This document shows, piece by piece, positions 36,396 through 53,354 of a stretch of 64,000 nt of DNA. Position numbers and translations under genes: made by a program. Source of the stretch: an uncultured Pelagibacteraceae bacterium (GTDB lineage: Bacteria > Pseudomonadota > Alphaproteobacteria > Pelagibacterales > Pelagibacteraceae). The notes beneath the pieces were generated by a model. The model was not told the DNA's origin. It did no database searches and was given only the letters and a program-made list of their open reading frames with translations. The stretch's first letter is position 1; the number at the start of each line of letters is the position of its first letter. The DNA is taken from NCBI GenBank assembly GCA_902517865.1, contig CABYDT010000001.1, positions 145,001 through 209,000 of the forward strand, written 5' to 3'.

Positions 36396-36424
36396 TTGTA
36401 ACATTATTGTAATAATTCCGACAT
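36396..36424 (+). promoter_or_regulatory. Candidate PhoB binding site upstream of arsC
   Basis: Three 7-bp elements repeat at an exact 11-bp period: TTGTAAC (36396), TTGTAAT (36407) and CCGACAT (36418). Each matches the PhoB half-site CTGTCAT/CTGTAAC at five or six positions. The site is only 11 bases before the arsC ATG, so the transcript would be very short-leadered. It argues for the downstream start of arsC. Confidence 0.4.
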
Positions 36425-36435
36425 ATTTTTTAAAG

Positions 36436-36852
36436 ATGAAAAAAGTTTTATTTTTATGTACAGGAAATTCAGCAAGATCTATTATATCAGAATGTCTATT
36501 AAATCAAATGGGTAAAAATAGATATCAAGCATTTAGTGCTGGATCAAAACCAGTGGGTAAAGTGAATCCCTATTCAATAAAAATTTTAGAAAAAAATAAT
36601 ATAAATTATGAAAAGGTTTCAAGTAAAAGCTGGGATGATTTTTCAGATACAAAGTTTGATACTATTGTTACAGTTTGTAACAATGCAGCAAATGAAACAT
36701 GCCCTGTTTATCCTGGATCGCCAAATAAATTACATTGGGATCTAGAGGATCCTGCTGCTTTTAATGGAAATGATGAAGAGAAATTAAATCAATTTCAAAG
36801 AACGTTTGATCAAATTCATAAATATATTAAAAAAGAATTTATAAATAAATGA
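36436..36852 (+). CDS. arsC: Arsenate reductase, low-molecular-weight phosphatase type
   Basis: Reduces arsenate to arsenite using thioredoxin or glutaredoxin. The phosphatase-like P-loop near the N-terminus is LCTGNSARS (Cys, then Arg). The later VCNNAANETCPVYPG supplies the cysteines used for the disulfide relay, and the DP acid is in WDLEDPAAF. It has 138 residues from the ATG at 36436; an ATG at 36391 would add 15 residues that run through the putative regulatory repeats. It overlaps the aquaporin gene by 4 bases. Confidence 0.92.
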   Translation: MKKVLFLCTGNSARSIISECLLNQMGKNRYQAFSAGSKPVGKVNPYSIKILEKNNINYEKVSSKSWDDFSDTKFDTIVTVCNNAANETCPVYPGSPNKLHWDLEDPAAFNGNDEEKLNQFQRTFDQIHKYIKKEFINK

Positions 36853-37499
36853 AAAATTTAGACAAATATTTCTCAGAATTTTTAGGGACATTAATTTTAT
36901 TACTATCAATTGTAGGATCTGGTATGATGGGACAATCCATGACAGAAAATGAGGCAGTAATCTTATTAGCAAACTCTTTGGCCATTGGATTTACTCTTGT
37001 TTTTTTAATTATTACTTTTGGTAAGAAATCAGGTGCTCATTTTAATCCTGCGGTTACATTAGTTATGTTATTACTGAGAAAAATTAAAACACGAATAGCT
37101 TCCATTTATGTTTTAATGCAGATTATGGGTGCGTGTACAGGTGTTATAATTGCAAATATCATTTTTGGCTTTGATGCAGTGGAACTATCAACAAAATATC
37201 GAAATGGATCAAATATTTTAATATCTGAGATCATTGCAACATTTGGATTATTAATGATTATTTTATTAAATCTTAAAAATAAAATCGAGGTGGTTGCGGG
37301 TTTAGTAGGGCTTTACATTGGAGCTGCAATTTGGTTTATGTCATCAACTGCATTTGCAAACCCAGCCGTTTCGATTGCTAGAACGCTGACCAATACTTTC
37401 ACTGGCATACATTATTCAAATATTATTTACTTTATTATTGCACAACTTATAGGTGCATTTTTATGTATGATTGTCCTAAAAAGAATTTACAAAATTTAA
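36849..37499 (+). CDS. Aquaporin / AqpS-like channel
   Basis: Major intrinsic protein family channel of 216 residues with six helices and both NPA half-helices: SGAHFNPAVTLV (about residue 65) and FANPAVSIARTL (about residue 173). In rhizobial ars operons an aquaporin (AqpS) releases the arsenite made by ArsC. Translational coupling (ATGA overlap) to arsC here supports the same task. A glycerol or water channel is the alternative. The sequence alone does not prove arsenite selectivity. Confidence 0.9.
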   Translation: MKNLDKYFSEFLGTLILLLSIVGSGMMGQSMTENEAVILLANSLAIGFTLVFLIITFGKKSGAHFNPAVTLVMLLLRKIKTRIASIYVLMQIMGACTGVIIANIIFGFDAVELSTKYRNGSNILISEIIATFGLLMIILLNLKNKIEVVAGLVGLYIGAAIWFMSSTAFANPAVSIARTLTNTFTGIHYSNIIYFIIAQLIGAFLCMIVLKRIYKI

Positions 37500-41393: not shown

Positions 41394-41900
41394 ATGTTAA
41401 TTTTATATGTCATGAGACACGCAAAATCTAGTTGGGAAAATCCTGATTTATCTGACTATCAAAGACCACTTAATAAAAGAGGAAGACATAATGCAAAATT
41501 GATGAAAAAAATTATGAAAAATAAGGTAATGTTTTTTGATTTTGCTTATATTTCTGGGTCTCAAAGAACAATGGAGACATTTAAATATATAAAAGATTTA
41601 AATTTAAGGAAAAAAAAAATAAAAAAAGATCATTATTTGGCTTCACCAAAAATTTTGCTCGAAACAATTCAGTCTACAAAGGATAAGTATAAAAGTATTC
41701 TAATTCTAAATCACGAACCAGCAGTAAAAAATTTAACAATGCAATTATGTTCAGATTTAAGTAATGAGGGAAAAATTTTAATCCAAAAATTTAGCACTGC
41801 AGGCATTGCAACAATTATTTTTAAAAAAAGATCTTGGTCAGAAATAAAATTTGGTGATGGTTTGCTTGATGAATTTATTAAACCTAAAGATTTTTACTAA
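41394..41900 (+). CDS. SixA-type phosphohistidine phosphatase
   Basis: Histidine phosphatase superfamily protein of 168 residues. The RHG-type catalytic motif is VMRHAKSSWENPDLSDYQRPLNKRG, with the second His in LILNHEPAV. SixA removes phosphate from histidine-phosphorylated proteins in E. coli; the target here is not known. Its position between polyphosphate and Pho genes suggests a role in phosphate signalling, by context only. The end overlaps the convergent phoB by 4 bases. Confidence 0.85.
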   Translation: MLILYVMRHAKSSWENPDLSDYQRPLNKRGRHNAKLMKKIMKNKVMFFDFAYISGSQRTMETFKYIKDLNLRKKKIKKDHYLASPKILLETIQSTKDKYKSILILNHEPAVKNLTMQLCSDLSNEGKILIQKFSTAGIATIIFKKRSWSEIKFGDGLLDEFIKPKDFY

Positions 41901-42580
41901 CCATCTATTGAATAGCCGACTGATCGTACAGTTCTTATCAAATCACATTGGTTATCTATATTAATAGCTTTCCTTAATCTTCTAATATGAACATCAACAG
42001 TACGAGTTTCTACATAAATATCATTACCCCAAACATGATTCAGTAACTGCTCCCTAGAGTAAACGCGTTTTGGATTTTTGATAAAAAAGTTTAACAAATT
42101 ATATTCGGTCGGACCTAATTTAATTTCTTTACCGCCTCGATAAACACGTCTTGCCAAACGATCAATTTTAATATCCTTAAATATAACTATGTCTTCAGTT
42201 AAGGATGGCTTCACTCTTTTTAATAATGCTCGAATTCGTAGATTAAGCTCTTTTGTACTAAATGGTTTTGTAACGTAATCATCGGCTCCTGTCTCAAACC
42301 CTCTAATTTTATCAGACTCTTCTGCTTTTGCAGTTAACATGATTACAGGTATTGATTTCAGTTTACTGTCCTTTTTAATTTGATTACAAATTTCAATTCC
42401 TGATAAATCTGGTAGCATCCAATCAAGTAGAACTAGATCTGGATTATTTTTTTTTATAAAAGTAAGTCCGTCTTCTCCATTTTCTGATATATGAACTTTG
42501 AAACCTTCTTTTTCTAAATTATACTGAATTAAAGTCGATATTGGTTTTTCGTCTTCAACAACTATTATCGTTGCATTCAT
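41897..42580 (-). CDS. phoB: Phosphate regulon response regulator PhoB
   Basis: Two-component transcription factor activated by PhoR. The receiver domain has acidic residues near VVEDEKP, phospho-acceptor Asp53 in LVLLDWMLPD, and the Lys in DDYVTKPFS. The OmpR-type winged helix has PTEYNLLNFFIKNPKRVYSREQLLNHVWG and VDVHIRRLRKAI. It has 227 residues. It is the last gene of the phoR...phoB run, which is unusual because phoB and phoR are more often adjacent. Confidence 0.95.
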   Translation of the reverse strand: MNATIIVVEDEKPISTLIQYNLEKEGFKVHISENGEDGLTFIKKNNPDLVLLDWMLPDLSGIEICNQIKKDSKLKSIPVIMLTAKAEESDKIRGFETGADDYVTKPFSTKELNLRIRALLKRVKPSLTEDIVIFKDIKIDRLARRVYRGGKEIKLGPTEYNLLNFFIKNPKRVYSREQLLNHVWGNDIYVETRTVDVHIRRLRKAINIDNQCDLIRTVRSVGYSIDG

Positions 42581-47873: not shown

Positions 47874-47902
47874 GTGGCACTAATATTAAACAAATATTAC
47901 AG
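47874..47902 (-). promoter_or_regulatory. Pho box upstream of pstS
   Basis: Reading the minus strand, three 7-bp elements stand at an 11-bp period: CTGTAAT, GTTTAAT and GTGCCAC. The first matches CTGTCAT at six of seven bases and the third matches CTGTCAC at five. It lies 55 bases before pstS, where PhoB control is expected. Confidence 0.6.
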
Positions 47903-47916
47903 TTTTGTAAAAAAGC

Positions 47917-48558
47917 TCACCGAATGGTTGAGTTATGAACAATTTTTACATCGCTTTTTTCGTCAGATAAGTTGCCACTACATGAAAATGGCAATACGGC
48001 TTTTGATAACGCATATTTGTTTGTCGGTCTCAAAACAACCTCTAAGACAACTAATTTGACCAAAGCTTTTCGGTAATTTTCCTGTAGTGTCCAAGGTTGG
48101 TTGGAAGGTGGATAAAATTTTTCAACTAAATATGATGCAACTTGAGACTCAGATAGCGTTGACTCTGGCTGACTCCTTAAAAGGCTATGTCTCACATCAT
48201 CGAAAATCTCTCTACATTTATTGCTCGAGCTTAAATAATCATTTTCACTTAGACCTTTACTCATTGGTATAGAAATTGAAGCTATAACTGCAGTTTTTCT
48301 CCAATTATATATAACCGACATCTCAACCTCTTCTTTTCTATCTCCTATTAAATTTTTTAATAATCTTGAAGTATATCTGCTTATAATTCGATCAATTGAT
48401 CGTTCCATATCTCTTTCTAAGTTAATAATACCTAAATCTAGATAATTTAATGGACGTTGCATTAAATTTGTAACAACTTCTTTTTGATCTGACACTGAAA
48501 TATTAGGAAATAAAAAAAACGACAATAGTAAAACAAAAATACTAGTTTTTTTTTTCAT
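47917..48558 (-). CDS. Hypothetical secreted protein in the pho operon
   Basis: I do not recognise this family. The 213-residue product has a signal peptide (about 1-23, ending ISVSD). The mature part is helical, with a charged segment rich in Arg and Glu (about 45-75), IYNWRKTAVIASISIPMS in the middle and a single Cys pair (about 120 and 200). It overlaps the phoR stop by 17 bases and precedes the pstS promoter, so it is expressed with the phosphate sensor. It may be a periplasmic accessory to phosphate sensing or uptake; that is context only. Confidence 0.7.
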   Translation of the reverse strand: MKKKTSIFVLLLSFFLFPNISVSDQKEVVTNLMQRPLNYLDLGIINLERDMERSIDRIISRYTSRLLKNLIGDRKEEVEMSVIYNWRKTAVIASISIPMSKGLSENDYLSSSNKCREIFDDVRHSLLRSQPESTLSESQVASYLVEKFYPPSNQPWTLQENYRKALVKLVVLEVVLRPTNKYALSKAVLPFSCSGNLSDEKSDVKIVHNSTIR

Positions 48559-49771
48559 AAATCGGTAAATGAACTATAAACTCACTTCCCTCGTTTAGTC
48601 TACTGTTAATTTCTAAATCTCCTCTATGTTGATTAATAATGTGTTTAACTATCGCTAAACCAAGACCCGTTCCTTGAATAAGATTTTTTTTTGCATTAGC
48701 GGTTCTATAAAACCTTTCTGTCACCCGATGTATTTCATTTTTTGGTATTCCAATACCCTGATCTTTCACATGAATGCTTACTGATCCTTTTGTTAATTTA
48801 TCCTCATTATTTTTTAAAAATATTTCGACCACTGAATTATCTTTTGTATATTTAATTGCATTATCATAAAGATTTTGAACTACCTCAAAAATTTTATCAT
48901 AATTACCTCTTACAAAAGGTGTCGTTTTGTTTTTAATAATTTTAATATCTAACCCTTTTTTCTCAGCCATTTTATTTGGTACCTTTTGTAAACTTTCTAA
49001 AATCTCATTAACATTTACTTTTGAATTAGGCTGAACATGTTCTTGCATCTCTATACGACTTAGAGACATCAAATCGGAAATTAATATTTCCATTTTATTT
49101 GCTTGCTCTTGCATAATTTTAATAAATTTCTGTTGAGCTATTGGATCATCTTTAGCTGATGAATAAATTGTCTCTAAAAATCCTTTAATAGAAACTAATG
49201 GTGTTTTAAGTTCATGGCTAACGTTTGCAACAAAGTCAGATCTTAACCTTTCAGCTTTTTTAACATCGGTATAATCTTTTACGACTAATAAAACATTTTT
49301 CTGACTAAGCGGCACAATAGTCAGTCTAAAAAAACTATATGTTGGCAAATTAATGTCAAACTCAAGATATTGATTAATTCTTTTGTTTCTTGAAATTTCA
49401 ATTTTATCCAAAAGATCAGGAACTCTGATAAAACCAGATAAATCTTTACCAATAACATCACCATAGTAATTTTTTGCAGCCTGATTTGCTGCAGAAATCG
49501 CATTAAAGGAGTTTATAAATAAAATATAATCCTCAATTTCATTGATTAATTGATTTTCTAAATCCTCAGAAGTGAATGCTTTAGAAGAATTTGTGACATT
49601 AAAATCTGCTGTATTTTTCTTTATTTTTGTTTTTTGATCTTCAATCTTGGAGGCGAAATACATTAATGTGCCATTTGATATGCACAAAATTACTAATGAA
49701 ATTAGTTCTAACTTTTCAAAAAAAAACAACAGAACTAGCAAAATGAAATTAAAAATTGGAATCATTAGCAT
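48542..49771 (-). CDS. phoR: Phosphate regulon sensor histidine kinase PhoR
   Basis: Membrane sensor kinase that phosphorylates PhoB when phosphate is low. Two N-terminal hydrophobic segments (about 3-40) have almost no periplasmic loop, as in PhoR. A PAS domain (about 75-170), the HisKA motif SHELKTPL with His186, and an HATPase domain with the N-box YDNAIKYTKD, DQGIGIP and GTGLGLAIVKHI follow. It has 409 residues. It is divergent from olsB across a 92-base region with Pho-box repeats. Confidence 0.94.
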   Translation of the reverse strand: MLMIPIFNFILLVLLFFFEKLELISLVILCISNGTLMYFASKIEDQKTKIKKNTADFNVTNSSKAFTSEDLENQLINEIEDYILFINSFNAISAANQAAKNYYGDVIGKDLSGFIRVPDLLDKIEISRNKRINQYLEFDINLPTYSFFRLTIVPLSQKNVLLVVKDYTDVKKAERLRSDFVANVSHELKTPLVSIKGFLETIYSSAKDDPIAQQKFIKIMQEQANKMEILISDLMSLSRIEMQEHVQPNSKVNVNEILESLQKVPNKMAEKKGLDIKIIKNKTTPFVRGNYDKIFEVVQNLYDNAIKYTKDNSVVEIFLKNNEDKLTKGSVSIHVKDQGIGIPKNEIHRVTERFYRTANAKKNLIQGTGLGLAIVKHIINQHRGDLEINSRLNEGSEFIVHLPIYEKKN

Positions 49772-49801
49772 ATCAACTAACTTTTAACATTATTTCGCAA
49801 A

Positions 49802-49841
49802 AAGTCATAATACTGAAACATTACTTTCATTTTACTGAAAC
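49802..49841 (+). promoter_or_regulatory. Four-fold Pho-box array upstream of olsB
   Basis: Four 7-bp elements lie at exactly 11-bp spacing: AAGTCAT (49802), CTGAAAC (49813), CTTTCAT (49824) and CTGAAAC (49835). They alternate two versions of the PhoB half-site CTGTCAT. Orientation favours the olsB-olsA operon; a TTTAAC -10-like element follows at about 49850. The array could also control phoR in the opposite direction. Confidence 0.65.
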
Positions 49842-49863
49842 CAAATCACTTTAACAACGTCCC

Positions 49864-50691: not shown

Positions 50692-51444
50692 GTGAAATCA
50701 TTAATAGCTTGGTTATTTGGTTTTTTGTATTTAAAAAAATTATACCAAAAACATTATAACAACTCTGAACTTAAAAATAATTTTTGGAATAAAACATTAG
50801 AACTTTTCAACATAAAATACTCGATATTAAATACTGAAAAAATTCCTAAGACTGGTCCTGTAATTATTGTATGTAACCACCCATTTGGACTAGTAGATGG
50901 ATTAATTATTGCTGATACTGTTTCTAAGAAAAGGGGAGATTACCGAATACTTATTAACGACGAAATATCACAAGTTGATCTCATAAGACCTTATTTGTTT
51001 CCTCTTAAACTTGATGAAAAAAGAGAATCTATAAAGTTTAACTTAAAATCAAAAAATGATGCTATCCAATATGTTCAAAATGGCGGTGCTTTAATCATTT
51101 TTCCATCTGGTGAAGTGGCAACTAGACAAAAAATATTTGAAAAAGCAATTGAAAAGAGGTGGCAATCTATTTTAGGTGCAATAATTAGAAAAACCGAAGC
51201 AGCAATATGTCCTGTTTATTTTCATGGTGAAAATAGTTTTTTATTTCACCTATTAGGAATGATGCATTACCCGTTAAGAAGAATTCTTTTTGCGAGGGAA
51301 CTAATTAATAAAAAAAATAAATTTTTTAAAGCAATATGCTTACCAACCTATCATACTTCTCAATTTATAGGTAAGGGTAACTCTGAAATTTCAAATGAGT
51401 TGAGAGAATATACCTTAAGAGGCAAAGAGTCTTTTAATAATTAG
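50692..51444 (+). CDS. olsA: 1-acyl-glycerol-3-phosphate-type acyltransferase (OlsA-like)
   Basis: O-acyltransferase of the PlsC family that would add the second chain to lyso-ornithine lipid. The catalytic NHX4D-like motif is CNHPFGLVDG, and FPSGEVATRQK matches the FPEGT-type block III. An N-terminal hydrophobic stretch suggests membrane association. It begins with GTG, 9 bases after olsB. The tail overlaps the convergent glycosyltransferase by 11 bases. Pairing with olsB supports the lipid role over general phospholipid synthesis. Confidence 0.83.
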   Translation: MKSLIAWLFGFLYLKKLYQKHYNNSELKNNFWNKTLELFNIKYSILNTEKIPKTGPVIIVCNHPFGLVDGLIIADTVSKKRGDYRILINDEISQVDLIRPYLFPLKLDEKRESIKFNLKSKNDAIQYVQNGGALIIFPSGEVATRQKIFEKAIEKRWQSILGAIIRKTEAAICPVYFHGENSFLFHLLGMMHYPLRRILFARELINKKNKFFKAICLPTYHTSQFIGKGNSEISNELREYTLRGKESFNN

Positions 51445-53301: not shown

Positions 53302-53325
53302 AAACGAATCTCTACTTTGAGTTGA

Positions 53326-53354
53326 ATCATAATTATGTTACAGAAGTGTTAAAA
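53326..53354 (-). promoter_or_regulatory. Candidate Pho box upstream of plcP
   Basis: Reading the minus strand, three 7-bp elements recur at 11-bp spacing: TTTTAAC, CTGTAAC and TTATGAT. The middle one matches CTGTAAC fully. It lies 25 bases before the plcP start in the 76-base region shared with the divergent lipid kinase gene, so it could serve both. Confidence 0.5.

Follow-up and report, generated by a model that had tools for sequence, protein, structure and literature searches.

A phoR-like gene and an olsB-like gene diverge from a gap of 92 bases (49772-49863) in the window, i.e., the whole 64-kb stretch of DNA analysed here, and the question raised by this locus is whether four short repeats in the gap form a PhoB site and, if so, which of the two genes they serve. 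The preliminary description had placed AAGTCAT, CTGAAAC, CTTTCAT and CTGAAAC in an 11-bp register before the ornithine-lipid genes, had connected lipid replacement with the Pho regulon, and had suggested that the repeats could bring phoR under self-control; a scan with a matrix made from pstS upstream regions and a search for conservation in related genomes were proposed as checks. The four heptamers are exactly present at 49802, 49813, 49824 and 49835, with 4-base spacers (AATA, ATTA and TTTA) and a step of exactly 11 bp, and the direct 7-bp half-sites at this step that characterize a Pho box thus occupy 49802-49841. Our reading, predicted from the sequence, is that this segment is a PhoB operator of four direct half-sites (two tandem Pho boxes), which would activate olsB-olsA on the plus strand, and we give this reading a probability of about 0.9. 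The relevant features are collected in Table 1.

Table 1. Window coordinates of the predicted PhoB sites and of the genes around them
Feature	Position	Strand	Basis or remark
PhoB half-site 1 (AAGTCAT)	49802..49808	+	Weakest of the four; T at position 4 and A at position 6 in 9/9 olsB upstream regions
PhoB half-site 2 (CTGAAAC)	49813..49819	+	Sequence, pstS-derived matrix
PhoB half-site 3 (CTTTCAT)	49824..49830	+	Sequence, pstS-derived matrix
PhoB half-site 4 (CTGAAAC)	49835..49841	+	Its end is 22 nt before the olsB ATG
olsB core promoter region	49842..49863	+	Putative -10 at about 49850-49857: TTTAAC (8-nt spacing) or TAACAA (10-nt spacing)
olsB-like N-acyltransferase, 272 aa	49864..50682	+	Pfam Acetyltransf_5, E 3.8e-27; best NCBIfam models are OlsB, under curated cut-offs
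olsA-like O-acyltransferase, 250 aa	50692..51444	+	Pfam Acyltransf_2, E 9.6e-14; resembles the acyltransferase half of OlsF
phoR-like histidine kinase, divergent neighbour	48542..49771	-	HisKA, HATPase_c; TIGR02966 phoR_proteo, E 1.2e-86, under its cut-off
phoB, presumed binder	41897..42580	-	TIGR02154 PhoB, 327.8 bits (cut-off 296.2); DNA-binding domain against E. coli PhoB 1gxp, E 4.9e-31
pstS Pho box	47885..47913	-	TTTTTAC, CTGTAAT, GTTTAAT in 11-bp register; rank 3 (k=3), rank 2 (k=4)
plcP-agt Pho box	53337..53354	-	TTTTAAC and CTGTAAC in 11-bp register; rank 1 for two half-sites; conserved in relatives

The 7-bp half-site matrix was learned from 16 pstS upstream regions belonging only to other SAR11 genera, the window's own genus being left out, by starting from the E. 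coli half-site as the seed and searching iteratively for triplets of half-sites in steps of 11 bp; one pstS box recovered in this process is TTGTAAC-aaaa-CTTTCAT-atta-CTGAAAC. When both strands of the window (about 128,000 positions) were scanned, the olsB run ranked first both as four half-sites, starting at 49802(+) with 19.8 bits, and as three half-sites, starting at 49813(+) with 22.2 bits, and was followed by sites upstream of pstS and plcP and then of an arsenate reductase gene. The half-sites therefore agree with the ones found at bona fide Pho genes of this lineage, and the first of the proposed checks has turned out in favour of the preliminary description. In 60 order-3 Markov simulations of 64 kb, the maxima were 15.4 for four half-sites and 18.0 for three, and none of the 60 reached the scores of the olsB run. 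The score depends on the 11-bp period also inside the gap: the remaining periods between 7 and 16 all gave -6.7 or less. The run is, furthermore, the only exact match to BTKWMAY-N4-BTKWMAY-N4-BTKWMAY in the genome of 962,553 bases. With one mismatch allowed, this degenerate three-half-site pattern was found 23 times genome-wide versus 27 times in the reversed control, i.e., without enrichment, and therefore only the unique exact match is informative. We have dropped the one-mismatch pattern as a regulon finder for this reason.

For the second check, olsB genes of relatives were sought in 197 genomes, and ten olsB loci, which represent nine distinct runs including that of the window and reach down to 49% OlsB identity, were tested. 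In all nine distinct upstream regions the best period was 11 bp, as the check demanded, and four half-sites at 11-bp steps were the best arrangement in each (P <= 0.002 each, against simulated sequence of the same length). The bases themselves vary widely among the regions, although this arrangement is kept. Position 6 is A in 36/36 half-sites of the nine regions, and position 4 alternates along the run, being T in the odd half-sites 1 and 3 (9/9 and 8/9 regions) and mostly A in the even half-sites 2 and 4 (8/9 and 7/9). In the alignments of close relatives, the run and the 13 bases behind it are preserved, and the sequence on either side has drifted. For CP.15, conservation amounts to 32/40 in the run and 10/13 just behind it, compared with 10/30 in the phoR-side flank, 2/9 next to the ATG and 21/55 at 4-fold sites of olsB.

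Concerning the gene that is served, the half-sites are oriented toward olsB, and the last of them lies 22-24 nt from the olsB ATG at all loci, while the distance from the run to phoR is not conserved and ranges from 8 to 47 nt. Within the family, every full-length olsB gene that was examined diverges from phoR. The run is present at 9/9 phoR loci adjoining olsB (k=4 scores from 7.2 to 21.2, k being the number of half-sites) and absent on either strand at 21/21 phoR loci without olsB (k=4 scores all -3.1 or less), many of which are near-identical and do not count as 21 independent cases. Because orientation, fixed ATG distance and genomic context all agree, we assign the run to olsB, as a predicted PhoB site serving olsB-olsA. 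Service to phoR as the main function was considered and rejected, since the 21 loci lack the run and the phoR distance varies. The run tracks olsB, not phoR, and therefore control of phoR by the run is unsupported: neither an activating orientation toward phoR nor conservation with phoR, which autoregulation would call for, has been found. Thus the PhoB-type tandem site and the link between ols genes and Pho regulon stand on the pstS matrix and conservation, and the suggested self-control of phoR falls on the direction of the half-sites, the drifting distance and the phoR loci devoid of the run.

A weaker form of the phoR proposal, in which the run regulates both divergent genes and PhoB controls phoR too, appears rather unlikely, because a tandem site in the phoR orientation is missing (the best four-half-site score on the minus strand of the gap is only -8.2) and because the variable phoR distance and the phoR genes without olsB speak against it as well. 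The positions of the elements nonetheless give it some ground. The genes are so close that a phoR promoter carried by the gap would adjoin or underlie the run, and half-site 1 covers a possible phoR -35, ATGACT (-) at 49803-49808, 16 nt from TAAAAG at 49781-49786; in TMED146, TATAAA preceded by TG is found at the same place. A consensus promoter scan of the gap, however, gave only a chance-level result. Since the half-sites face olsB, repression would be the likelier effect on phoR, and, as a guess from position only, PhoB may be a phoR repressor through overlap of this -35 with half-site 1. Gene order in other genera also bears on dual control. Some genera that lack olsBA have an unbroken plcP-agt-phoR series on one strand (13 loci), with little space before phoR, which may there be read from the plcP promoter. 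In the window, olsBA lies reversed between agt and phoR, which points to gain or loss of a cassette at one spot; when olsBA is present, the route from the plcP promoter would pass antisense through olsBA, and hence a phoR promoter must sit in or near the gap. One could speculate, with considerable doubt, that the sign of PhoR feedback differs by SAR11 lineage, being positive without olsBA, where phoR would be read from the plcP-agt promoter, and negative where the olsBA cassette is placed between agt and phoR, where PhoB at half-site 1 would block the phoR promoter and the lipid-gene mRNAs would be leaderless.

We next consider the protein that would bind the run. A phoB gene is present in the genome, and its product has a DNA-binding domain of the matching kind, in whose alignment to 1gxp RTVDVHIRRLRKA is identical. 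Tandem binding is common to OmpR-family regulators, and an A at position 4 sets half-sites apart from those of E. coli (three positions of CTGAAAC, 4, 5 and 7, depart from its consensus CTGTCAT), but it is very improbable that another OmpR-family regulator with direct-repeat sites takes the place of PhoB here, because the pstS-derived matrix finds pstS, plcP, arsC and olsB, and because CTTTCAT-N4-CTGAAAC, i.e., half-sites 3 and 4 of the olsB run, also sits inside the pstS box of another genus (three loci). A chance product of AT-rich intergenic DNA, with which the AT-richness of the gap, the degeneracy of the half-sites and the unenriched single-mismatch matches would agree, is contradicted by the simulations, the period specificity and the conservation in nine distinct regions, and can practically be set aside.

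For the PhoB operator of olsB-olsA, we propose the following mechanism. When phosphate is scarce, PhoR would phosphorylate PhoB, which would bind the direct repeats head to tail, substitute for the -35 element and recruit RNA polymerase to a weak -10 located some 8-10 nt downstream, and transcription would probably begin at or next to the ATG and yield a leaderless mRNA. Pho boxes of E. coli usually stand in for the -35, close to the -10 (PMC4971064), and their spacing to the core promoter is considered strict (PMC10294691). We infer PhoB binding, activation, the -10 and the start site here. The -10 candidate of olsB is poor. All olsB regions (9/9) have a TA step 11-12 nt past half-site 4, as would fit a -10 with a spacing of about 10 nt and a start at or beside the ATG. 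A Shine-Dalgarno-like sequence is absent at every olsB gene checked; the pstS genes of the same family have such a sequence and are 52-65 nt from their box. Because the box-to-ATG distance is fixed at all olsB loci and the Shine-Dalgarno sequence is missing, we regard a leaderless olsB mRNA as fairly likely. This leaderless-type geometry is found at 49842-49863 and at nine other loci.

The product of olsB stays below the NCBIfam cut-offs for OlsB (226.8 of 320 and 202.9 of 350 bits), and OlsB is still its best-matching named family, in addition to its Pfam match; ornithine specificity of the enzymes is what we infer. With a gap of 9 nt, olsB and olsA are predicted to share one operon. The minus-strand neighbours are phoR, a protein of unknown family, pstS, pstC, pstA, pstB, phoU and phoB, and on the other side of the gap olsB and olsA (+) head toward agt and plcP (-). 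The convergent olsA and agt overlap by 11 bases (51434-51444), and the two Pho-box operons, olsBA and plcP-agt, therefore run into each other. The protein between phoR and pstS, encoded at 47917-48558 (-), looks secreted and has no Pfam match, and its counterpart occupies the same place in other SAR11 genera (two loci). After the plcP Pho box, a TGATTC...GATTCG pair (53302-53337) is conserved in many relatives (among 23 plcP upstream regions). Another Pho box, TTGTAAC-atta-TTGTAAT at 36396-36413 (+), stands ahead of arsC (36436-36852) and an aquaporin gene (36849-37499). Two half-sites in 11-bp register were found for arsC in 9/9 homologues of at least 71% identity, the box-to-ATG distance is 21-22 nt in the six measured, and some arsC relatives have a Shine-Dalgarno-like sequence. 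An arsenate reductase gene is 2.3-fold up in P-starved HTCC7211 (PMC6426599), and PhoB control of the arsC-aquaporin pair, as suggested by this box, would explain the rise.

The E. coli Pho box, CTGTCAT-A(AT)A(TA)-CTGT(CA)A(CT) (PMC3465305), is composed of two 11-nt direct repeat units (PMC4415409). The olsB run resembles it in its direct 7-bp half-sites, 4-bp AT-rich spacers, 11-bp step and predicted location in place of a -35 element, and differs in that SAR11 half-sites approximate YTKWMAY and that olsB has four half-sites versus two in the minimal box. Pho boxes upstream of olsB have been described in Acinetobacter (PMC11828411) and Burkholderia sensu lato (PMC7814305), where a PhoB-type site likewise precedes the first ornithine-lipid synthesis gene; unlike these, the SAR11 olsB-olsA operon is divergent from phoR, inside a pst-pho-plcP-agt cluster, with the site 22-24 nt from the ATG. 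Pho boxes have also been predicted in marine plcP gene clusters including that of SAR11 HTCC7211 (PMC4796936), with the same neighbours (plcP, agt) and the same regulator, but that paper treats plcP and its neighbours, and the name olsB is absent from its text. SAR11 aminolipids respond to P limitation and are not constitutive (PMC9938194). Our literature search found no description of the SAR11 olsB site, the main SAR11 lipid paper being outside the search scope. A paper on SAR11 lipid renovation reportedly describes, for strain HTCC7211, a cluster of four lipid genes that phosphate starvation induces. Phosphate-responsive SAR11 ornithine lipids and olsB Pho boxes elsewhere are thus already known; the present analysis adds the particular SAR11 element and the evidence that it is conserved, together with a half-site matrix specific to the lineage and the constant spacing between box and ATG.

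SAR11 bacteria are among the most abundant cells of the ocean, and the swap of phospholipids for phosphorus-free lipids is one answer to phosphate scarcity. A conserved DNA element can explain the phosphate response of their ornithine-lipid genes, and a usable SAR11 PhoB matrix has been obtained as a by-product. The geometry in which a box is followed after 22-24 nt by the ATG predicts leaderless PhoB transcripts, and may aid the search for further Pho genes such as the arsenate-reductase operon.
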